NCBI GenBank assembly: GCA_026932145.1
Contig: JAIXKT010000021.1
Location: forward strand, 124,001 to 188,000
Direction: 5' to 3'
DNA from: Bacteroidia bacterium
GTDB taxonomy: Bacteria; Bacteroidota; Bacteroidia; J057; JAIXKT01
DNA: 64,000 nucleotides
Shown: piece after piece, positions 6,445-35,294 of the stretch
Position numbering within the stretch: position 1 is the first letter of the stretch
Layout: each line of letters opens with the position of its first letter
Made by a program: the position numbers and the translations under genes
Notes under the pieces: model-generated
What the model was told of the DNA's origin: nothing
The model's input: only the letters and a program-made list of their open reading frames with translations
The model's database searches: none

Positions 6445-7479
6445 ATGAAAACCACCCAATACACTTTATTACTAACGTTTTTGGTGCTGTTCTTATTCCA
6501 TAAACTAAATGCACAAACTGACAATGATTTAAAGCCATACAGTAATTTTGATTTTATTGCAGGAGAGCAAATCTTATTTGAAGACGATTTTAAGGATAGC
6601 CCAAACGGAGAATTTCCTCCACGTTGGAATCTATTAGGTGGCCAGGCAACTGTAAACAGGCTTAAAGATGATGTATCAATGGTATGTATAGAAGGATCTT
6701 TAGGTACCATCTGTGAGGTTGAGCCGGCAATGAAGAAAAACACAAAAAATTATCTCAAAAATGCATTTACGGTTGAGTTTGATTTTTTTTACAAAGACAA
6801 TGATGGATATATAATGCTGTCTCTACGCGATAATACAGGAGACGTAAGGTCTATTTCATTTGAATCAACAGGAGAAATTAAAACGAATTATTTTGATAAT
6901 CCATTCGTAGGTATTTATAAAGGAGATGTAGATAATTACACCGGAAAATGGCATCATGTGTCGGTTGCATACAAAAATCAGCAGATTAAATTATATATTG
7001 ACCAATATCGGGTGTTGGTAATCCCAAAATGCGGATTTGACCCTGCATCTATTTCATTCGGCCTTGTTGAAAACACACGTATAAAAAATGTGAAAGTTGC
7101 CGAAGGTGGTGGAATGAATATGTTGGGAAAAATTCTGACAGATGGAAAATTTGTAACCCATGCTATTAAATTCGATGTTTCAAAAGCAACAATCAAAGGA
7201 GAAAGTATGGGTTTCCTAAATGAACTTGCCAAGTGGCTAAAAGAAAACACTACGATTAAACTCGAGATAGGCGGGCATACTGATAGCGACGGTGATGATA
7301 CTTCCAATTTAAAACTTTCCCAACAACGCGCCGAAGCCGTAAAAAAAGTGCTGGTTTCACTTGGCGTTGAAGACTCAAGATTATCTCCCAAAGGCTATGG
7401 CGAAACCAAACCATTAAGCAGCAATAATACACCGGAAGGCAAGGCAGATAATCGTAGGGTCGAGTTTTTGAAAATCTAA
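6445..7479 (+). CDS. OmpA family protein with N-terminal lectin-like domain
   Basis: Exported protein of 344 residues. A signal peptide ends at KLNAQ. Residues about 35-220 look like a concanavalin/LamG-type beta-sandwich (LFEDDFKDSPNGEFPPRW, then GKWHHVSVAYKNQQIKLYIDQ), a fold often used for carbohydrate binding. The C-terminal 110 residues are an OmpA peptidoglycan-binding domain with GGHTDSDGDD, LSQQRAEAVKKVLV and the closing NRRVEF. Such proteins usually sit in the outer membrane or periplasm and tether to the wall. It has its own promoter box and no obvious partner. The ligand of the lectin-like part is unknown. Confidence 0.88.
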   Translation: MKTTQYTLLLTFLVLFLFHKLNAQTDNDLKPYSNFDFIAGEQILFEDDFKDSPNGEFPPRWNLLGGQATVNRLKDDVSMVCIEGSLGTICEVEPAMKKNTKNYLKNAFTVEFDFFYKDNDGYIMLSLRDNTGDVRSISFESTGEIKTNYFDNPFVGIYKGDVDNYTGKWHHVSVAYKNQQIKLYIDQYRVLVIPKCGFDPASISFGLVENTRIKNVKVAEGGGMNMLGKILTDGKFVTHAIKFDVSKATIKGESMGFLNELAKWLKENTTIKLEIGGHTDSDGDDTSNLKLSQQRAEAVKKVLVSLGVEDSRLSPKGYGETKPLSSNNTPEGKADNRRVEFLKI

Positions 7480-8285: not shown

Positions 8286-10889
8286 ATGGTTTTTAAGCAA
8301 ACTTTATTATCGTTAACACTTTTATTTCTAAGTGCTTATGCATTATTTGGAAAGCACCTAACCGGAGGTGAGATTACCTATAAATATTTAGGCACATCTT
8401 CCGGAAAGTGGCGATATGAGGTAAATATCGTTGTTTTTAGAGATTGTAATGAACAAGTTGCTTTTGATAAAGACATTACCTTGACGATATGGGAGAAGCA
8501 GGGAGCTTCACAATATAGTTTTTATGGCAGTTCCCTCATCAAATTAGGGCCAGTTGAAAACGTTCCAATTACCTCTTACAATCCCTGTGTTTCGCCTCCC
8601 GCTGGAATTTGTTATGAAAAAACTGTTTATACAAAAGAGATACAATTGCCGGTAAATCAGACAGGCTACGTTCTTTCTTGGGAGAGATGCTGCCGGAATA
8701 ACACTATTGTTAATTTAGCAACTCCGGAGATGTACGGAATTACTTATTGGGCAACGATTCCTCCGCAGCCTAATTCTTCTCCTGTTTTTGAAAGTTTTCC
8801 GCCTACTTTTTTATGTTTGAATGATACTTTTGGTTTTAGCCATCGTGCTATAGATTCGGACGGAGACGTTATTGTTTATAGCTTAGAACGTCCGGTAACC
8901 GGTGCTTCAGATTCAGATCCGAAGCCGGATACATCCGGTTTTCCGCCGTTTACCCTGATACCGTATTCGGCTAATTTTTCGCAAGCGAACCCATTAGGTG
9001 GCACAGTCCCTTTAACAATAGACCCAAACACCGGCTACTTACGCGCCCAACCGGGTAGAGTTGGGCAATTCGTTTTTGTGGTAGTAGCCCAAGAATACCG
9101 AAATGGAGAACTTTTAAACGAACTAAGACGAGATTGGCAGGTTAATGTGGCCGTATGCCCAGCCAACACAGCTCCTTTTGTCAATACTACCGAAATCTCA
9201 CCAGCACCCCAAAATGACACCCTATTGTTTCGAGAAGGCGTTCAAACTTGCTACACCATTCCGATAAGAGATAATGTCGGAGATTCTGTATTTGTGCAGG
9301 GAATAGGCGGAATTTTTGGAAATGACCAGCCCGTAGTGCTGCCCAATGCAACACTGCAAGGAGCCGGCGTGGCAAAGTATAATGCCACAATGTGTTGGAA
9401 ACCAACCTGCGACCAAATCGGAAAAGTATTCCCGTTCTACATCCAAATGCAGGATAACTATAAATGCCCTACGCCAAATACCAACCAACAATATTTTTGG
9501 GCAACTGTGGTAACAGGACTTCCTGACCCTCCTAACTTGCGATGTATCAGTTATTTAAACCAAAATTCATTAACATTGTCTTGGATAATTCCGCCAATAC
9601 CGGATGGTTTTGTGTCTTACAGAATTTACCGCAATGACGGTTCCGGCTGGGCACTTTATGATAGCATACCAAACGCCCAAATTACTACCTATACAGATAT
9701 TAAAGCTTTTGGCTGCAATACTAAGCAGTATTACTATGCTTTAACTACGGTTCGATATTGTAATGAATTTTATGAAAGCCCCAAAAGCCGTTCTGTTTCA
9801 AATATCATTTTGCGTACCGCTAATGAAGTTACTGCTATCACAGCATATTTGGAATGGTCAGCTTATACAGCTTGGGATAACCCCACTTATGAAGTCGTTC
9901 TAAGCAACAACAGCGTAGCTTCTCAGCCTCAAGACACAACAGAACTCCTTTCCCTTTGTGAATATACCGGAAATATTCGGATTAGAGTGCGAGACCCGCT
10001 TTCAAATTGTTTCGCTTGGTCTGCGCCCTCCCGTTCGCTAAACCTACATAACATACCCCCAACCGGAATTTCTATCTGCCATGTTTCGGTACTCCCTAAT
10101 AACAACGGAATTGAAATCCGATGGAATCCAATAACAGACCCTGATTTAAAAGAATTCCGAATATTGAGGCAAAAAGACCACTCTCAACCTTTTCAGGTTA
10201 TTGAACAACTACTCGATGTATCCCGAACGAACTTTATTGACCAACATACTTTTGTAGATAAATATAGTTATAGCTATAAAATTCAAGCAGTTGATTCTTG
10301 TGATGAGGTCGTTACGAGCAACGTAGTAGCACCGATTTTATTATCAGGTAGCTCAAAGCCGTATGTAGCTAATTTAGAGTGGGATCGCGGAAAATTACCT
10401 TGGAATCCTCTGGAATGGCAGATATTTACAAACGCTACCTCAGAATCCAATAGTTTTATTTCACTCAAAACGCTTCCTGCAAGTGATTTTTATTACACAG
10501 ATGATAACTTAGACCTTTCCAAAGGAAATTTCTTATACAGAATCATGACCTTAAATCCCAATACCGCTTGTGGAGATACTTCTTGGTCAAATACTGTTTC
10601 GGTATCATTTCCAACATTGGTTTATGTACCATCGGCATTTTCTCCCAATGGAGATGGAATTAATGATGTTTTTAAAATAGAGTCTTTATTTATTGAACGT
10701 TTTTCCATAAAGATTTTTAACCGGTTGGGAAATTTAGTTTTTGAATCAGAGATGCCGGACTTTTTATGGAATGGGCAAGCAAAAACGGGTGTTGATGCGC
10801 CAGAAAGTGTTTATGTGTATTATCTGGAATTAGTTGGTTTTGATAAAAAAGAAGTACGGCAAACCGGAACCATAACCTTAATTCGATAG
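8286..10889 (+). CDS. Secreted T9SS type B (gliding motility-associated) sorting-domain protein
   Basis: Cell-surface or secreted protein of 867 residues. It has an N-terminal signal peptide, then a module beginning LTGGEITYKYLG that recurs in Bacteroidota gliding/surface proteins. Cysteine-bearing beta-rich repeats follow, with fibronectin type III-like segments (for example TLSWIIPPIPDGFVSYRIYRNDG and WNPITDPDLKEFRILRQ). The last ~90 residues are the type B C-terminal sorting domain: YVPSAFSPNGDGINDVF, IKIFNRLGNLVF, then DAPESVYVYYLELVG and TGTITLIR. This domain directs export by the type IX secretion system. No T9SS machinery is in the window. The biological role (adhesion, gliding or other) cannot be told from sequence. 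Confidence 0.93.
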   Translation: MVFKQTLLSLTLLFLSAYALFGKHLTGGEITYKYLGTSSGKWRYEVNIVVFRDCNEQVAFDKDITLTIWEKQGASQYSFYGSSLIKLGPVENVPITSYNPCVSPPAGICYEKTVYTKEIQLPVNQTGYVLSWERCCRNNTIVNLATPEMYGITYWATIPPQPNSSPVFESFPPTFLCLNDTFGFSHRAIDSDGDVIVYSLERPVTGASDSDPKPDTSGFPPFTLIPYSANFSQANPLGGTVPLTIDPNTGYLRAQPGRVGQFVFVVVAQEYRNGELLNELRRDWQVNVAVCPANTAPFVNTTEISPAPQNDTLLFREGVQTCYTIPIRDNVGDSVFVQGIGGIFGNDQPVVLPNATLQGAGVAKYNATMCWKPTCDQIGKVFPFYIQMQDNYKCPTPNTNQQYFWATVVTGLPDPPNLRCISYLNQNSLTLSWIIPPIPDGFVSYRIYRNDGSGWALYDSIPNAQITTYTDIKAFGCNTKQYYYALTTVRYCNEFYESPKSRSVSNIILRTANEVTAITAYLEWSAYTAWDNPTYEVVLSNNSVASQPQDTTELLSLCEYTGNIRIRVRDPLSNCFAWSAPSRSLNLHNIPPTGISICHVSVLPNNNGIEIRWNPITDPDLKEFRILRQKDHSQPFQVIEQLLDVSRTNFIDQHTFVDKYSYSYKIQAVDSCDEVVTSNVVAPILLSGSSKPYVANLEWDRGKLPWNPLEWQIFTNATSESNSFISLKTLPASDFYYTDDNLDLSKGNFLYRIMTLNPNTACGDTSWSNTVSVSFPTLVYVPSAFSPNGDGINDVFKIESLFIERFSIKIFNRLGNLVFESEMPDFLWNGQAKTGVDAPESVYVYYLELVGFDKKEVRQTGTITLIR

Positions 10890-10952: not shown

Positions 10953-12734
10953 TCATTTTTGTGAACCGCTATCCATACTTAGTTTTACGCAATCATCACC
11001 AACGGTCTGTGGGGCTAAGAGTACCTTAATTTGGTGGTACGGTATTTTATAGCTTCTAACTAATTCATTTTTAATCGTGATAGCTTGCTGAAAAGCTCTT
11101 GTTCTGGCTGAACCTCCTTTAGCTTCTTCAAAAGAAGTAACTAATATCATTTTGCTTAACTTGTTTTTTACCAATATTTTGTAACATTCCTGCAGGATTT
11201 TTCGGGTATTAACGTCTATTTGTAGGCGGTTTCTACGGATGCAAAGCAATGTATCTATGGCTTGTGATTTTGCCGTAATAGCAGTATCATGGTGTGTTTC
11301 TTTGAGAGTGGAATCTGTATTTGGATAACTATTTTTAGCAGCAGTTTGGGATATTAAAGGGAGGAAGTTTTTTTGATAAGCTTCCGTTGGGACGTTTCCG
11401 GCCATTACAAAATGATTTGCCAGTACCCAATTTGACCATACATCTTGTAGTGCTGATTCTGGCAGATGATACAAAATGTCCGTCCTTTGTTCAATCCATT
11501 CTGGCTGGTGTGTAGCCCACGCAATTCCGATTTCACGACCGTAATCAATATTTTTTTGCAATGAACGTATCCAATTTCGCTCTACTCGTTGCCTCGCTCG
11601 ATTTAACTCTCTTTCAGTAAAATAGTTTTCTGCAACTACTTCTTTAAGATAGTTTTTAAAGTTTTCCAGCACATCAGGTTTGGTCATTTCAGGAGATAAT
11701 GCTGCGTTAAAAAGTAGCTCTCCGGTATATTTTCGGGGGGTATATTTAAACTGACCGTATAACATACCCGGAACTTTTTCCGGAAGCGACTGCTGGAATT
11801 TAGATTGGCGAAAATTTAGCAATTCACAAAGAACAGATAGCGAAATAGTGGCAATCGGGTCGTTTTGAAAATCAGGTCCCTGCCAGCCAACAGTGAGATA
11901 AGAATATTCCCCTCCAGAAATTTCGCGCCAAGAAGCAGTATCTTGCTTTAAAGGTTTTGGATCAGGTATCGGAAAACGAGTATATTGATTCATCAACAAT
12001 GGCTTCCAACTCCCAAATAATGAATCTACTAAGCCATATAACGGGCCAAAATCCCCATCTCCGGAAATCACTAATGCACAATGATTGGGAAAATAATAGT
12101 GATTGTATTGATACCGTAATAATACCGGAGAGTAGCCTGCTAATAATTCTACATCCGTGATAACTTGCTTCCGATATAAATTTTCTTTCCAGAGTAAACG
12201 GTTTAATCTGGACTGCAATCCAAACAAAGGGTCGCTATCCCGCACCAGCAAAGAATCCCCTAAATGGGTGCATAACTGCTTCACTATAAGCGAATCAAAA
12301 GTAGGCTGGCGTACCGCTGTCGCTAACCAAGATAATCCAGTCGTTATCTGATTTGACAATAACTCCAATGAAAAACGAGTGTATTCAATATCAGTTTCAG
12401 AATCAAAAGAAATGGCGTTTTTGTTGAAAAAAGATTGATTTTCCGAAGGAGTAGGATACAATTGATTGGAACAAGAAATGGACTTCTCTATCAAATAGGC
12501 AATTCCTTGTTCCGAAAATGGTTGGTTGAAAGCGCCATTTTTAACAAAAAGATGAACCGATAATACCGGTAATGCGTGGTTTTCTACAAATATAAAATCA
12601 AGTCCGTTGTCTAATTTAGTTTGCAACACTCTGGAAATAGGCTGCCTTGAAAGCCGTTTACCTTGCGCAAACCCCAATAAAGGGCAGTAAATTGTAATAA
12701 TAAAAATCCAGATGAAAAAACCAAACGGTTTCAT
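10953..12734 (-). CDS. Inactive M16 (insulinase) family protein with degenerate OmpA-like tail
   Basis: Exported protein of 593 residues with a signal peptide ending LLGFAQ. Residues about 35-470 follow the M16 two-lobe pattern (LDNGLDFIFVENHALPVLSVHLFVKNGAFN, later YNHYYFPNHCALVISGDGD). The zinc motif HxxEH is replaced by Tyr80-Leu-Ile-Glu83-Lys84, and no compensating Glu is obvious downstream, so peptidase activity is unlikely. The last ~100 residues (KILVKNKLSKMILVTS, then RAFQQAITIKNELVRSYKI) have the spacing of an OmpA-like domain but lack NRRVE. Its ATG overlaps the TGA of the methyltransferase gene upstream. The M16 fold is confident; the OmpA likeness of the tail is an inference. Confidence 0.8.
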   Translation of the reverse strand: MKPFGFFIWIFIITIYCPLLGFAQGKRLSRQPISRVLQTKLDNGLDFIFVENHALPVLSVHLFVKNGAFNQPFSEQGIAYLIEKSISCSNQLYPTPSENQSFFNKNAISFDSETDIEYTRFSLELLSNQITTGLSWLATAVRQPTFDSLIVKQLCTHLGDSLLVRDSDPLFGLQSRLNRLLWKENLYRKQVITDVELLAGYSPVLLRYQYNHYYFPNHCALVISGDGDFGPLYGLVDSLFGSWKPLLMNQYTRFPIPDPKPLKQDTASWREISGGEYSYLTVGWQGPDFQNDPIATISLSVLCELLNFRQSKFQQSLPEKVPGMLYGQFKYTPRKYTGELLFNAALSPEMTKPDVLENFKNYLKEVVAENYFTERELNRARQRVERNWIRSLQKNIDYGREIGIAWATHQPEWIEQRTDILYHLPESALQDVWSNWVLANHFVMAGNVPTEAYQKNFLPLISQTAAKNSYPNTDSTLKETHHDTAITAKSQAIDTLLCIRRNRLQIDVNTRKILQECYKILVKNKLSKMILVTSFEEAKGGSARTRAFQQAITIKNELVRSYKIPYHQIKVLLAPQTVGDDCVKLSMDSGSQK

Positions 12735-13564
12735 AAAGTTGATTTCTTTTGGGCGATGAAGTTTAGCCCGAAAAAAAAGTATTCTCGTAAAAACTGATTA
12801 TTTCGCCAGATATTTTGCTCTCGGTTAGCTACAGATTGCCAAGACTCGCCCACATAGCTATTCGGCAAATAATAGCGAATATACTGAACAGATTCCGGCA
12901 AAATTTGTAAATTTTGTTTTAAAAGCTCTGACTTCCAAGTGCTTAGATTTCTAATATTTTCATTTCCCAATAAAATATGCTTTTGGAGTTTTTCGTCATA
13001 TATCTGGATAATTCTTTTATTGCCGCGCTGTAAAAATAATTTTGCACGTTGTATGATATTATTTCCGTTTTCTTCTACCGCGATTAACTTTCCGGTATCT
13101 GACAGAGAATTGTAAATTATTTTTAATGCTTCTGATAATGGTTCTAAGTGGTGCAAGGTATCTTGAACAATAATTGTTTGATAACTATTTGCTTCCGGAG
13201 GCATATTAAAGAGGTTTTCATAAGAAACAAAAAGCTGGAAAATATCACCGTATTGAGACCAAAATTCCTTACGCTTATGAATGTGCTGAAAATAAAATTC
13301 GAGGGTTAAACCTTTAACTGTGTATCCATTCAAAACCAAGAAGATAGCCGTTGTGGCATAACCGCATCCAATATCCAAAATAGGATTTTCAGGGCTCGTA
13401 TTTTGGATATTTTCCCAAATATAGTTTAGCCGCTGCATAAAATAAGCCTTGCGAAACGCTAATAACTTATGGTTCTCTCCAAACTTATAGTAACCCCCAA
13501 AATAGTCATGTGTTTGGAGTTCTTTTAAAAAAATTTCAAAAAAATGCTCAGCGGAAAATGGCAT
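12731..13564 (-). CDS. Class I SAM-dependent methyltransferase
   Basis: Soluble protein of 277 residues. The SAM-binding motif I is ILDIGCGYATTAIFL (about residue 65). Motif II/post-I lies near YTVKGLTLE, and VQDTLHHLEPLSEALKIIYNSL is the acidic motif typical of methyltransferase family 11/12. No signal peptide is present. The substrate is unknown; the C-terminus (YLPNSYVGESWQSVANREQNIWRNN) is not diagnostic to me. It is the first gene of a two-gene unit and overlaps the M16-like gene by 4 bases, so a functional link such as modification of an envelope component is possible but unproven. Confidence 0.85.
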   Translation of the reverse strand: MPFSAEHFFEIFLKELQTHDYFGGYYKFGENHKLLAFRKAYFMQRLNYIWENIQNTSPENPILDIGCGYATTAIFLVLNGYTVKGLTLEFYFQHIHKRKEFWSQYGDIFQLFVSYENLFNMPPEANSYQTIIVQDTLHHLEPLSEALKIIYNSLSDTGKLIAVEENGNNIIQRAKLFLQRGNKRIIQIYDEKLQKHILLGNENIRNLSTWKSELLKQNLQILPESVQYIRYYLPNSYVGESWQSVANREQNIWRNNQFLREYFFFGLNFIAQKKSTL

Positions 13565-13650: not shown

Positions 13651-16600
13651 TTACATATTCCTCCGATATTGCCCGCCCACTTGGTAAAGAGCTTTGCTAA
13701 GTTCCCCTAAGGAGGCTACTTTTCCGGCTTCCATCATACATTCAAAGATATTTTTATTGTTGAGTGCGGCCTCTTGAAGGCGTTGAAGACTAATGGTGAT
13801 TTCTGCTTGGTTTCGTTTGCAAAGTGCTTGGATATTGTTAATCTGCAACTGTTTTTCCGCTGGGGTAGAGCGGATTACCTCTTCCGGAATTTGTGTAGGT
13901 GAGCCTTCGGCACTCAAAAAGGTGTTTACTCCGATAATTGGATATTCTCCGGTGTGTTTAAGTGTTTCATAATAAAGAGATTCTTCCTGAATTTTGTTTC
14001 GTTGATACATAGTTTCCATAGCTCCCAGCACCCCGCCTCGGTCGGAAATCCTGTTAAATTCTGTATAAATAGCTTCTTCAACTAAGTCCGTTAGCTCTTC
14101 TATGATAAAACTTCCTTGTAATGGATTTTCATTTTTTGCTAATCCAAGTTCTTTATTAATAATAAGTTGAATAGCAACGGCTCTTCTAACGGATTCTTCG
14201 GTAGGCGTTGTAATGGCTTCGTCATAAGCGTTAGTATGCAGCGAGTTACAGTTATCGTAGATAGCATACAAGGCTTGCAAGGTAGTGCGGATGTCGTTAA
14301 AATCAATTTCTTGTGCGTGCAAAGAACGTCCGGAAGTTTGGATGTGATATTTTAACATCTGAGAGCGTTCATTGCCGCCATATTTGAATCTGATAGCTTT
14401 TGCCCAAATCCTACGTGCAACTCTTCCGATTACACTGTATTCGGGGTCTATACCATTTGAAAAGAAGAAACTGAGATTGGGAGCAAAATCATTAATATCC
14501 ATACCGCGTGCCAGATAATATTCAACAAAAGTGAATCCATTAGCCAGTGTAAAAGCTACTTGGGAAATCGGGTTAGCTCCTGCCTCTGCAATGTGGTAGC
14601 CGGAAATAGATACAGAATAAAAATTGCGTACCTGATTTTGAATAAAATATTCTTGTATATCTCCCATTAATTTGAGGGCAAATTCGGTGGAAAAGATGCA
14701 GGTATTTTGGGCTTGGTCTTCTTTTAAAATATCAGCCTGAACAGTTCCTCGAACTGATTGCAGTGTTTTGGTCTTTATTTTTTGGTAAACTTCGGGGGAG
14801 AGCACTTGGTCTCCGGTAACGCCGAGTAGCATCAGCCCTAATCCGTTATTTCCCGGCGGGAGATCTCCGTGATATACCGGGCGTGGTTCACCTTTTTGTG
14901 TATAAATAGTTTCTATTGTTGCTTGAACTTCTGCTTCAAGGTGGTTTTCAAGGATATAGCGTTCGCATTGCTGGTCTATGGCAGCGTTTAAGAAAAATGC
15001 TAATACCATAGGTGCAGGCCCGTTTATGGTCATAGAAACGGACGTTTTGGGGTCGCAGAGGTCAAAGCCGGAATATAATTTTTTGGCATCATCTAAACAG
15101 GCGATGGATACGCCGGAATTGCCTATTTTTCCATAAATATCCGGTCTGTGGTCTGGGTTTTCGCCGTACAAGGTTACGGAGTCAAATGCGGTGCTGAGCC
15201 GGACTGCCGGCATCCCCATCGAAAGATAGTGAAACCGCTTGTTGGTTCGCTCTGGATTTCCTTCTCCGGCAAACATTCGGGTGGGGTCTTCATTAGTGCG
15301 TTTGAAAGGATAAACGCCTGCGGTGTATGGAAATTCACCAGGAACATTTTCTAACATCACCCAACGAACAATTTCTCCCCAATCCTGAAAGTTGGGTAAT
15401 GCAATTTTGGGGATCTGCAAATGTGATAATGTTTCGGTATAGTTTGAAACCCGAATTTCTTTTCCGCGCACGAAGTATGAAAAATAGGGCTGCCGAAAAT
15501 TATTTCGGGTAGCTTCCCAGTTTGTCATAATCTGCCGAGTTGCTGCGTCAAGAAGTTGCTCTTGCTTTTGATATAACTGTTGGATTACCTCTATGGTTGG
15601 GTCTGCGGGATTTTGTTTTGCTAAAAGTTCTTGAGTGCCATGCAGTTGAAATAAGGTTCTGGCGATAACTGCTTGTTTATGAGCCTGTTGGTTATATCGT
15701 TGCCCATCTTCAACGATTTCAGCTAAGTAGCGGGTTCTTTCTGGTGGGATAACGCGGCTTTTCACAGAAGTAGATTCAGGAGAAAATGTGATAGCTTCCG
15801 GCAATAAAGAAACTTTTGTTTTTTGGGTAATGGCAGCCATTACCTCAAAAAAGAGTCTGGTTGTTCCGGAGTCATTAAACTGATTAGCCATAGTACCGAA
15901 TACCGGCATATTATCTAAGGGTTCAGAAAAACGTTTTTGGTTTCGTTGTAGTTGTTTTTTTACGTCTCTTAAAGCATCATCGGCACCTTTTTTGTCGAAT
16001 TTATTGATGGCTACGAGGTCGGCAAAGTCGAGCATATCAATTTTTTCGAGTTGGGTAGCTGCGCCAAATTCAGGTGTCATTACATATAAAAACACATCGG
16101 CGAGTTCTGTTATTTGGCTATCAGATTGCCCGATACCGGCTGTTTCTATAATAATCAGGTCGTATTGAGCTGCTTTGAATAGTTGGATAACGTCATGAAC
16201 GGCCTTATTTACAGAAGTATGGGCTTGGCGGGTAGCCATAGAGCGCATAAATACGCTGGAACTGTTGATGGCATTCATTCGGATTCTATCTCCGAGTAAT
16301 GCGCCGCCGGTTTTTCGTTTACTGGGGTCAATAGACAGAATAGCTACGGTCTTATCGGTCGTAAAGTTTAAAAACCTTCGGACAAGCTCATCGGTTAAAG
16401 AAGATTTTCCGGCACCGCCGGTGCCGGTTATTCCCAATACCGGCACATCTTTAAGTGCTGTTTTAGGTTGAATTTCTGCCAAAATATCTTGACCGGATTC
16501 AGGATTGTTTTCCAATAGGGTTATCAAACGGGCAATATCCCGATCCTTTTTTGCTGTTAAGTTTTTAATTTCTCCATTGATATTTGCATTTATTTCATAA

Positions 16601-17031
16601 TCAGCTTTTTGCAACACATCGTTAATCATACCTTGCAGTCCCATATTCCTACCGTCATCGGGGGAGTAAATTCGGGTAATGCCATAGGCTTGGAGTTCTG
16701 CTATTTCATTTGGTAAGATAGTACCGCCGCCGCCTGCAAAGATTTTAATATGTTCCATTTGCGCCTGAACCAGCAAATCGTACATATATTTTAGGTATTC
16801 AATGTGGCCGCCTTGGTATGAAGTTATCGCAATTGCCTGAGCATCTTCTTGGATAGCACAAGTTACGATTTCCTGAACAGAGCGGTTATGGCCTAAATGG
16901 ATTACCTCTGCACCACTCGATTGCAATATCCGCCGCATAATATTAATACTGGCATCATGGCCGTCAAATAATGAGGCCGCAGTAACTATTCGAACTTTAT
17001 GGGCAGTTTGATACGGAGCTATTGTTTGCAT
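13651..17031 (-). CDS. icmF: Fused isobutyryl-CoA mutase (mutase + G-protein chaperone)
   Basis: Single-chain adenosylcobalamin-dependent acyl-CoA mutase of 1126 residues, interconverting isobutyryl-CoA and n-butyryl-CoA; IcmF enzymes can also rearrange isovaleryl-CoA. Domains in order are as follows. A B12-binding Rossmann domain comes first (residues 1-145), with DGHDAS holding the ligand His25. Next is a MeaB/MeaI-type GTPase with P-loop [12 protein letters not shown] (200-211), ETAGIGQSD and the base-recognition NKFDKK. After a linker comes the mutase TIM barrel ([19 protein letters not shown], then [21 protein letters not shown]). The GTPase between B12 and substrate domains is the hallmark of IcmF and separates it from MutB. 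It is a single-gene unit; a degenerate box TGATTTTG lies next to the ATG. Confidence 0.95.
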
Positions 17032-33563: not shown

Positions 33564-35294
33564 TTAGTTTCCTACTGCGGCTTTAAATTCTGCACTTTCC
33601 CATTGTTTACGGAATTCTAAGTCATTACGAGCTTTGGTTCCGAATTTTGAGTCTAAGGTAGCAGCTTTCTTTAAATTAACAGCCATTATGTCGCTGGCAC
33701 CTGTACGCACACCTACGATAGCGAGTACATAATAGTATAATGCTTGAGTTTGGTCTTCGCGAATAGCTGTTTCTAAATCTGTTTTTGCGCCGGCAAAATC
33801 ACCCATTAGGAGTTTACATAATCCTGAATTGTATAACGCACCTCCCAAAGAACGAGAGTTTCCAAAACGCTCAGTAGCAGCAGAATACATAGCTTTCTTT
33901 TCTAAGATTACGCCATAGTTAAATTGTGCCTCAGGTGTTGATGTACCGGATAATGAATTTTCGTATAGTTTTTTGGCTTCAGCGATATTTTTCTTGTTTT
34001 TATAGGCAACGCCTAAATTGTTTTGAACAATATAGTTGTTTGCGCTCAGTCGGTTCGCTTCGCTTAGTGCGTTAAAGCCTTCTTCGGTATTTCTTTCTTT
34101 TAGGTAAAGAACTCCTAAGTCGTTAAAGGCGCGATACTCTTCTTTGTAGGCTTGGGTAAATTCTTTGAGCATATCGCGGCGAGCCGTGTTATTGGTAATG
34201 CGGGAGGCAGCATAAAGCCATTCTTCTTTTTGGAAGATTTCGCGAAGTGTACCTTTGTTTCCGCCGTTAGCAAAGATAGCAGAAATGGAATCTATTTGTG
34301 CATCAGTGCGTCTGGGTTCGTAGCCTTCTAAGCGAATGGTGGCGCGGCGTAACGGAGCTAAAATTTCCTCTACATTTTTGTAGCCACCAACTAAAGCCAT
34401 GATTTTCTTCTCTTTAAGGTCTTCATCATAGCCGGCTGAGGCAATTTCGATAATCTGGCTTTTTACATCTTCGGAGAAAGGCATTGAGCGTAAATTTGCC
34501 TTAAACCCGTCCCAATCCTCTGAAGTAGTGGATATTTTAAAGAAAGTTGAATCTAAATAAGCGGAATATCCATAATTTTTTAGCTGGTCGGTTAGCCATT
34601 TTACGACCTCTTTAGAGCGATTTACGGAAAGCATTTGATTTCTTTTAAAAGGCCCTTCGGGGGAAGCAAAACCTACAACGGTAATGCTGGTAGCCGGAAA
34701 GCGTTTGGAAATAAAATCTCCGATATTACGGATTTCAGACTTGTCAAACTCTGTGGGCTGTATAGCAAAGACATCACGAGGAAATTGAAATACGGCTGTT
34801 AAGGTAAGCGGAACTTCTTTAACATAGCTATGCTTAGTCATTAAAAATTGGTCATTTTCATATACTAAGCGAGAAGTAGTGATACAGCAAGGTGCTAAGG
34901 TGAGATCCGGTAAATCAACGTTTTTCTTTTTGCGGCTATATTTATTTACAGCAATTAAGTTTCCGCCGTCCATTTTGTCGTTAAAGGCGGTTTCTCCGCT
35001 GGTAGAGAGGCTGGCTCCCTCTTTTTTGATATTGGGATATTTTTCGTAGGGAACATTAATTTTATTGAGTGTGAATGTGTTAGCTCCGTTTTTAATGACG
35101 AGTTCTCCGGTATAAATACCGCCTTTTTTGATACCGGATTTTGCCGGAATATTGGCTTTTACGGAAAATTTAACGGAATCAGCGTGAACTTCTAAAGGGT
35201 TAGGCGTTACGGTAACTGTTGCCCCTTTAAAACTTTTACAACTATGCGACCCGATAGCAAGCACTATGGCGAGTGCTAAATATGTACGTTTCAT
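33564..35294 (-). CDS. Outer-membrane-type lipoprotein with OmpA-like and TPR domains
   Basis: Protein of 576 residues. The lipoprotein signal ends AIGSHSC (Cys19). An N-terminal beta-rich region (VTPNPLEVHADSVKFSVKANIP) is followed by an OmpA-like segment in the middle (about residues 185-260: TVVGFASPEGPFKRNQMLSVNRSKEVVKWL). The C-terminal half holds TPR repeats (AFNDLGVLYLKERNTEEGFNALSEANRL, VQNNLGVAYKNKKNIAEAKKLYENSL and others). The layout partly recalls PorE of the type IX system, but no WD40 propeller is present, so I do not call it PorE. It is likely a cell-wall-linked scaffold. Confidence 0.82.
   Translation of the reverse strand: MKRTYLALAIVLAIGSHSCKSFKGATVTVTPNPLEVHADSVKFSVKANIPAKSGIKKGGIYTGELVIKNGANTFTLNKINVPYEKYPNIKKEGASLSTSGETAFNDKMDGGNLIAVNKYSRKKKNVDLPDLTLAPCCITTSRLVYENDQFLMTKHSYVKEVPLTLTAVFQFPRDVFAIQPTEFDKSEIRNIGDFISKRFPATSITVVGFASPEGPFKRNQMLSVNRSKEVVKWLTDQLKNYGYSAYLDSTFFKISTTSEDWDGFKANLRSMPFSEDVKSQIIEIASAGYDEDLKEKKIMALVGGYKNVEEILAPLRRATIRLEGYEPRRTDAQIDSISAIFANGGNKGTLREIFQKEEWLYAASRITNNTARRDMLKEFTQAYKEEYRAFNDLGVLYLKERNTEEGFNALSEANRLSANNYIVQNNLGVAYKNKKNIAEAKKLYENSLSGTSTPEAQFNYGVILEKKAMYSAATERFGNSRSLGGALYNSGLCKLLMGDFAGAKTDLETAIREDQTQALYYYVLAIVGVRTGASDIMAVNLKKAATLDSKFGTKARNDLEFRKQWESAEFKAAVGN

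Follow-up and report, generated by a model that had tools for sequence, protein, structure and literature searches.

The gene at 10953-12734 of the window, the name used here for the whole 64,000-nucleotide stretch of DNA analysed, raises the question of why a bacterium keeps an M16-type peptidase whose zinc site is gone. Pseudo-peptidases are usually accounted for by an active partner, and the role of the bc1 core proteins has long been unclear. In the preliminary description of this DNA, the gene was taken for a pseudo-M16 peptidase with a worn OmpA domain at its C-terminus, neighboured by a methyltransferase and reused at the cell wall. In the following, alpha denotes the window-type M16 gene, and beta the second M16 gene that accompanies alpha in relatives.

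An M16 Core with a Lost Zinc Site

Translation of the open reading frame confirmed that it is intact from ATG to stop and encodes 593 amino acids on the minus strand (Table 1). Both M16 domains of Pfam match above their curated cut-offs, PF00675 with 43.2 bits (cut-off 22.3) and PF05193 with 52.5 bits (cut-off 23). The AlphaFold2 model of the core has the M16 fold, with 3ami_A as the top Foldseek match (E 7.7e-28, TM-score by target 0.87), and the best 50 matches listed for the whole alpha model are M16 structures. In the alignment of 26 alphas, the residues YLIEK of the window alpha align with the HL(Y/F)EH motif found in 18 of the 26, and the third-ligand Glu is likewise substituted, so that the elements expected of an active M16 zinc peptidase (HxxEH plus the third-ligand Glu) are missing from this protein. 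These comparisons support the initial reading of the core as a predicted pseudo-peptidase of the M16 fold.

Table 1. Features of the alpha gene, of its neighbour in the window, and of the beta gene of the same genome
Feature	Position	Strand	Basis
Alpha, 593 aa: M16B-type protein, catalytically dead by its motifs, with a tail of OmpA descent	10953..12734	(-)	ORF, Pfam, alignment, AlphaFold2 model
Probable signal peptide, residues 1-24	12663..12734	(-)	By-eye reading of translation
PF00675 match, residues 54-152	12279..12575	(-)	E 4.9e-11
Former zinc motif HxxEH, now Y80-L-I-E-K84	12483..12497	(-)	Alignment of 26 alphas
PF05193 match, residues 206-383	11586..12119	(-)	E 7.1e-14
Disordered linker between core and tail, residues 464-494	11253..11345	(-)	pLDDT under 50
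OmpA-like tail, residues 494-588, both peptidoglycan-contact columns altered (Asp to Glu, Arg to Gln)	10971..11255	(-)	Pfam, tail HMM, model, alignment
SAM methyltransferase, upstream of alpha, 4-base overlap; probably an incidental neighbour	12731..13564	(-)	ORF list, Pfam
Beta of the window's genome	G000:C11:17400-18722 (contig other than the window's)		Homologue of relatives' beta

Beta, the Partner Gene of Alpha

Full-length matches to the window alpha, with 16-23% identity, were recovered in a first survey of 60 relatives. Directly after alpha in G004, G006, G010, G037, and G046 lies a second M16-like open reading frame of ~450 aa, with an overlap or gap of at most about 100 bases. The preliminary description, which placed alpha alone beside a methyltransferase, had no view of this partner: the usual neighbour of alpha in relatives is an M16 gene, and the window's genome encodes its beta on another contig. 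This beta is weak as an M16 protein by Pfam, reaching 22.1 bits in a protein scan (cut-off 23) and 24.4 bits in the genome search. The top Foldseek match of the beta model is 5hxk_A (TM-score 0.88). Together, 3ami_A and 5hxk_A represent the two subunit kinds of bacterial M16B heterodimers, which are the best fold and sequence matches of alpha and beta.

The two genes occur together. Profile searches of a class sample (n = 395) detected alpha in 26 genomes, beta in 26, both in 25, and neither in 368, with alpha alone in G320, a weak match, and beta alone in G350, a genome that is 78% complete. In a phylum-wide sample (n = 395), alpha and beta were found in an identical set of 16 genomes, six of these positives being common to the class sample. 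Within the window's order, a full-length alpha is present in 7 of 22 genomes, representing five families, and beta is present in the same seven. The Fisher values of these analyses are uncorrected for kinship. Adding G004 to the 25 genomes that share both genes in the class sample gave a set of 26, in which alpha and beta are adjacent in 21 and apart in G000, G002, G005, G008, and G261. G320 (E 8.6e-46, family motifs absent) was left out of the motif table and trees, and G350 and a second G037 locus were left out of the beta set because the open reading frame there differed from the match.

Two genomes, G497 and G526 (loci L155-L160 and L174-L178), carry multiple copies, each having alpha twice or three times and beta twice. 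A plasmid collection yielded 28 records, all with less than 60% identity and none covering 80% of the query, that correspond to ordinary M16 proteins. A scan of further genome contigs with the window protein found no relative, and the locus detected with G006 and G010 besides G010's own contig proved to be an unrelated OmpA protein.

Loss of Both Halves of the Composite Active Site

In published M16B heterodimers, HxxEH belongs to one chain and the R/Y pair to its partner chain (PMC12731061, PMC8960859), and mutation of these residues in PttP1/PttP2 was reported to reduce activity (PMC8960859). Similar to alpha and beta, the pairs SPH2681/SPH2682, TTHA1264/TTHA1265, and PttP1/PttP2 consist of two homologous chains of ~450 aa, usually encoded by neighbouring genes, and their division into an HxxEH chain and an R/Y chain is that of the active alpha/beta pairs.

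Among the 26 alphas, HL(Y/F)EH and the third Glu are present in 18 and absent in 8. The R-x5-(S/T)-Y motif is present in 17 of the 26 betas and absent in 9, being degraded in that of the window's genome. Counted by pair (n = 26), both motifs are found in 17, neither in 8 (the window's included), the zinc site only in one (G046), and the R/Y motif only in none. Ten further genomes have HxYEH in 13/13 alpha copies and the R/Y motif in 12/12 beta copies. By these motifs, ordinary members of the family are zinc peptidases in which alpha would supply HxxEH and the third Glu, and beta the completing R/Y pair. The pair of the window's genome has lost both halves of the composite site, since its alpha lacks HxxEH and its beta the R/Y motif. 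An active M16 subunit encoded beside homologues of this gene had been considered the finding that would overturn the preliminary view; instead, the partner gene is without HxxEH in 26/26 genomes.

The combination of one active and one inactive chain is the common form of bacterial M16B pairs, and the account of prokaryotic M16 proteins in a review includes no bacterial pair dead in both chains (PMC12731061). The alpha chain of MPP, an M16B chain without HxxEH that reads HxxDR (PMC11266112), resembles the window alpha in the loss of the motif, but it serves an active beta, whereas the partner of the window alpha is dead too. In contrast to the heterodimeric bacterial M16B peptidases, the dead pairs lack both motifs, and alpha bears an OmpA-type tail; such pairs are presumably devoid of proteolytic activity. 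Searches of open-licence papers turned up neither an account of an M16-OmpA protein nor one of a bacterial M16 pair in which both subunits are dead.

Number of Losses and Selection on the Dead Pairs

In the beta tree, G037 groups with G080, G116, G147, and G177 (support 100/97), which are the remaining sampled members of its order and all active, and G046 lies beside the seven dead members of the window's order (80/95). A single clade of all eight dead members was rejected for beta by a topology test (p 0.0105). The alpha tree argues against two losses, as all eight dead members fall on one side (82/92), on very long branches. AU tests on alpha did not reject a grouping of G037 with the rest of its order (p 0.30), or one of the window's order with G046 (p 0.10). 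From these trees, two separate losses, one in the window's order and one in G037, appear likely rather than proven.

All eight dead alphas are open frames. A comparison of the dead pairs of G002 and G008, two genomes of one genus, gave a dN/dS of 0.106 (alpha) and 0.091 (beta), at dS values close to saturation (2.1 and 1.5); purifying selection thus acts on the dead pair, as measured in this one genus.

Conservation was compared between seven dead and eight active alphas, at a distance that makes the alignments uncertain. The active set comprised 8 of the 18 HxxEH alphas, and G008 was left out of the dead set for its closeness to G002. The strand that follows the zinc helix, presumably the substrate-binding one (as labelled in MPP), and the third-ligand region are among the top conserved stretches of active alphas and among the worst of dead ones, in which 97% and 96% of alignment windows, respectively, are at least as conserved. 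The zinc-helix stretch of dead alphas is slightly better conserved than average, with 17% of alignment windows equally good, and the positions retained are Pro, Gly, and Trp of the fold. The R/Y loop of beta goes from best conserved in active members to average in dead ones; the helix of dead betas that matches the zinc helix and their C-terminal W-x-Y-x-G stretch remain well conserved. The loss of conservation in the putative substrate strand, the third-ligand region, and the R/Y loop points to retention of the fold rather than of a peptide-binding site.

The OmpA-Derived Tail

The tail of the window alpha, considered by itself, is suggestive of OmpA, since its score against PF00691 when scanned alone (E 0.013, 16.3 bits) is below the cut-off of 27.2 and PF00691 is absent from the Pfam report when the entire protein is scanned. 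A phmmer search with the tail alone against PDB retrieved no OmpA chain. Against an HMM built from the tails of six relatives, the cut-out tail reached 17.4 bits, compared with 12.1 for the top of 2000 shuffles, and the identical stretch within the whole protein just 12.2 bits. The AlphaFold2 model of the tail has the order strand-helix-strand-helix-strand-strand, with block-mean pLDDT of 72-93, which is the order expected of OmpA and the same as that of its C-terminal domain (PF00691; 3td3). PF00691 matches 6 of the 24 alphas scanned, with scores above the cut-off in G002, G005, G006, G010, and G046, and the M16-OmpA architecture that the preliminary description proposed to look for elsewhere is found in these genomes. 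A clear OmpA tail is present in five of the seven other dead alphas as well as in G046. A tail profile that included the window tail matched the A. baumannii OmpA structure 3td3 with E 1.4e-20. The clear OmpA tails of relatives, the score above shuffles, and the confident model establish the OmpA ancestry of the tail, and they support its reading as a genuine but worn OmpA-descended domain, much as was first suggested.

The columns of 3td3 hold an Asp and an Arg spaced 15 residues apart, where the window tail has Glu and Gln. From this spacing, the two would be Asp271 and Arg286, reported to bind diaminopimelate in A. baumannii OmpA (PMC7901484). Both are kept in the tails of G002, G006, G008, G010, and G046, and neither in those of G005 and the window alpha. 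The window tail thus differs from the OmpA C-terminal domain in these two residues and in its fusion to an M16 core. Since the contact residues are Glu and Gln, peptidoglycan binding by the window alpha itself is doubtful; the idea of a reuse at the cell wall therefore fits the clear OmpA tails of its relatives better than the protein for which it was formulated. A lipobox-like start was recognized by eye in the betas of G005, G006, G010, and G046, and none in the beta of the window's genome. Judging from the sequences, several relatives could plausibly link the outer membrane to the wall; such a link has less in its favour in the window's pair, whose tail is without the contact residues and whose beta is without a lipobox.

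Other alphas show further variation at the C-terminus. Three alphas of family f57 (L093, L096, L098) combine an active HLYEH with an N-terminus that by eye resembles a lipobox and a C-terminus extended by a stretch that is only weakly OmpA-like; the OmpA-tail HMM gives the tails of the f57 alphas of G147, G080, and G177 scores of 9.4, 2.2, and 2.0 bits. In the alpha of G005 (L084), the M16 core and the OmpA tail are separated by an additional helical stretch that weakly matches MgtE_N (24.2 bits, cut-off 25.9).

Proposed Role of the Dead Pair and Alternative Explanations

Alpha would form one half of an alpha/beta clamshell of the M16B type, a two-gene system of Bacteroidota in which some alphas carry an OmpA-type tail. 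Both halves of the composite site would have disappeared in the window's order and, it seems, again in G037, with both subunits retained. The product would be a non-proteolytic periplasmic alpha/beta heterodimer, acting as a structural scaffold akin to the bc1 core proteins, and the OmpA tail would position it at the peptidoglycan in most members, through a contact that may be weakened or changed in that of the window. We consider such a non-proteolytic M16B scaffold heterodimer with an originally wall-binding tail to be the probable explanation. Within it, we infer the physical association of alpha and beta and their periplasmic location, and the scaffold role is our guess.

Core proteins I and II of the bc1 complex are described as a peptidase-derived M16B pair that is usually non-proteolytic and forms structural subunits, with the motif altered to YFVEH in bovine core I (PMC12731061). 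They share with dead alpha/beta the loss of both site halves and retention by selection (for alpha/beta, selection as seen in G002 and G008 only), a likeness of kind and not of descent. In contrast, they are mitochondrial, belong to a respiratory complex, and have no OmpA tail, whereas the dead alpha/beta pairs are bacterial and would have lost the site independently. A tentative extension, which we hold as possible without leaning towards it, is that the pair is what bacteria have in place of the bc1 core proteins, a peptidase heterodimer whose two subunits lost catalysis on at least two occasions in Bacteroidota and which turned into an envelope scaffold, tied to peptidoglycan at first by the fused OmpA domain, with G046 (zinc site without R/Y) as an intermediate. 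A dead pair with a cell-wall-type domain suggests that an enzyme was turned into a structural piece of the envelope. Since both partners are dead together and the lineage series holds active, intermediate, and dead members, this turn becomes directly testable in bacteria. If true, it would provide a bacterial parallel to the bc1 core proteins, and the envelope proteins known from Bacteroidota would gain an M16-OmpA architecture.

Alternatively, the closed chamber of the dead pair could capture peptides or unfolded proteins and leave them uncut, as a holdase, decoy, or peptide sensor. The clamshell fold is retained in the models of both subunits, and inactive insulin-degrading enzyme reportedly holds amyloid peptide (PMC3623905), but the conservation pattern of the putative substrate strand, among the least conserved stretches of dead alphas, and of the merely average R/Y loop makes this use unlikely. 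Alpha could also be the non-catalytic partner of one of the active M16 proteins encoded elsewhere in its genome, such as the HLFEH protein at G000:C21:61238; active M16 genes are present there, and active/inactive pairs are the common form of bacterial M16B (PMC12731061). Alpha descends from the catalytic subunit kind and not from the R/Y kind, its presence tracks that of beta in both 395-genome samples, and the window's genome also encodes one R/Y protein without HxxEH, already on hand for the active M16 proteins; we regard this partnership as quite improbable. Since the other M16 proteins of this genome keep intact motifs (HLFEH, HFLEH, HYLEH), beta is by exclusion the natural partner of alpha.

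The very long branches of dead members in both trees, the worn tail, and the loss of alpha/beta linkage in 4/8 dead genomes could be taken as signs of a functionless gene on its way to being lost. Decay of this kind is very improbable given the open frames of 8/8 dead alphas, the confident model of the window protein, the dN/dS near 0.1 in the sole pair measured, and the joint retention of both genes in seven genomes from five families of the window's order, which support the assignment of alpha to a retained family rather than to decaying orphans. A functional unit of methyltransferase and alpha, serving as a wall sensor, would draw on their 4-base overlap on the same strand, for which the coordinates first given are correct. 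However, no methyltransferase homologue (blastp, E up to 1e-4) was detected near the alphas of eight relatives (G002, G004, G005, G006, G008, G010, G037, and G046). The neighbour therefore looks incidental, the pairing to be sought in other genomes did not recur in these, and the methyltransferase was rejected as a functional partner, leaving the wall sensor with next to no probability. The scaffold heterodimer of alpha and beta is thus retained as the preferred reading.

Genomic Neighbourhood

The genes around alpha differ among relatives, with LptF/G and a glycosyltransferase in G005 and an M61 peptidase in G006. Apart from beta, no widely common neighbour was found in the relatives' neighbourhoods examined, and a functional pathway could not be read from any single shared one. 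Nor did the neighbourhoods examined show any trace of a bc1 complex. Just upstream of the methyltransferase and alpha, positions 13651-17031 (-) of the window encode a fused acyl-CoA mutase with B12-binding, MeaB-like GTPase, and MM_CoA_mutase matches. On the opposite strand, ~3.5 kb from alpha, a 344 aa protein (6445-7479, +) has a clear OmpA domain (80.7 bits), and an 867 aa protein (8286-10889, +) has a CHU_C type IX secretion signal domain (69.8 bits). A 576 aa TPR protein (33564-35294, -) shows an OmpA match below threshold (23.7 bits, cut-off 27.2).
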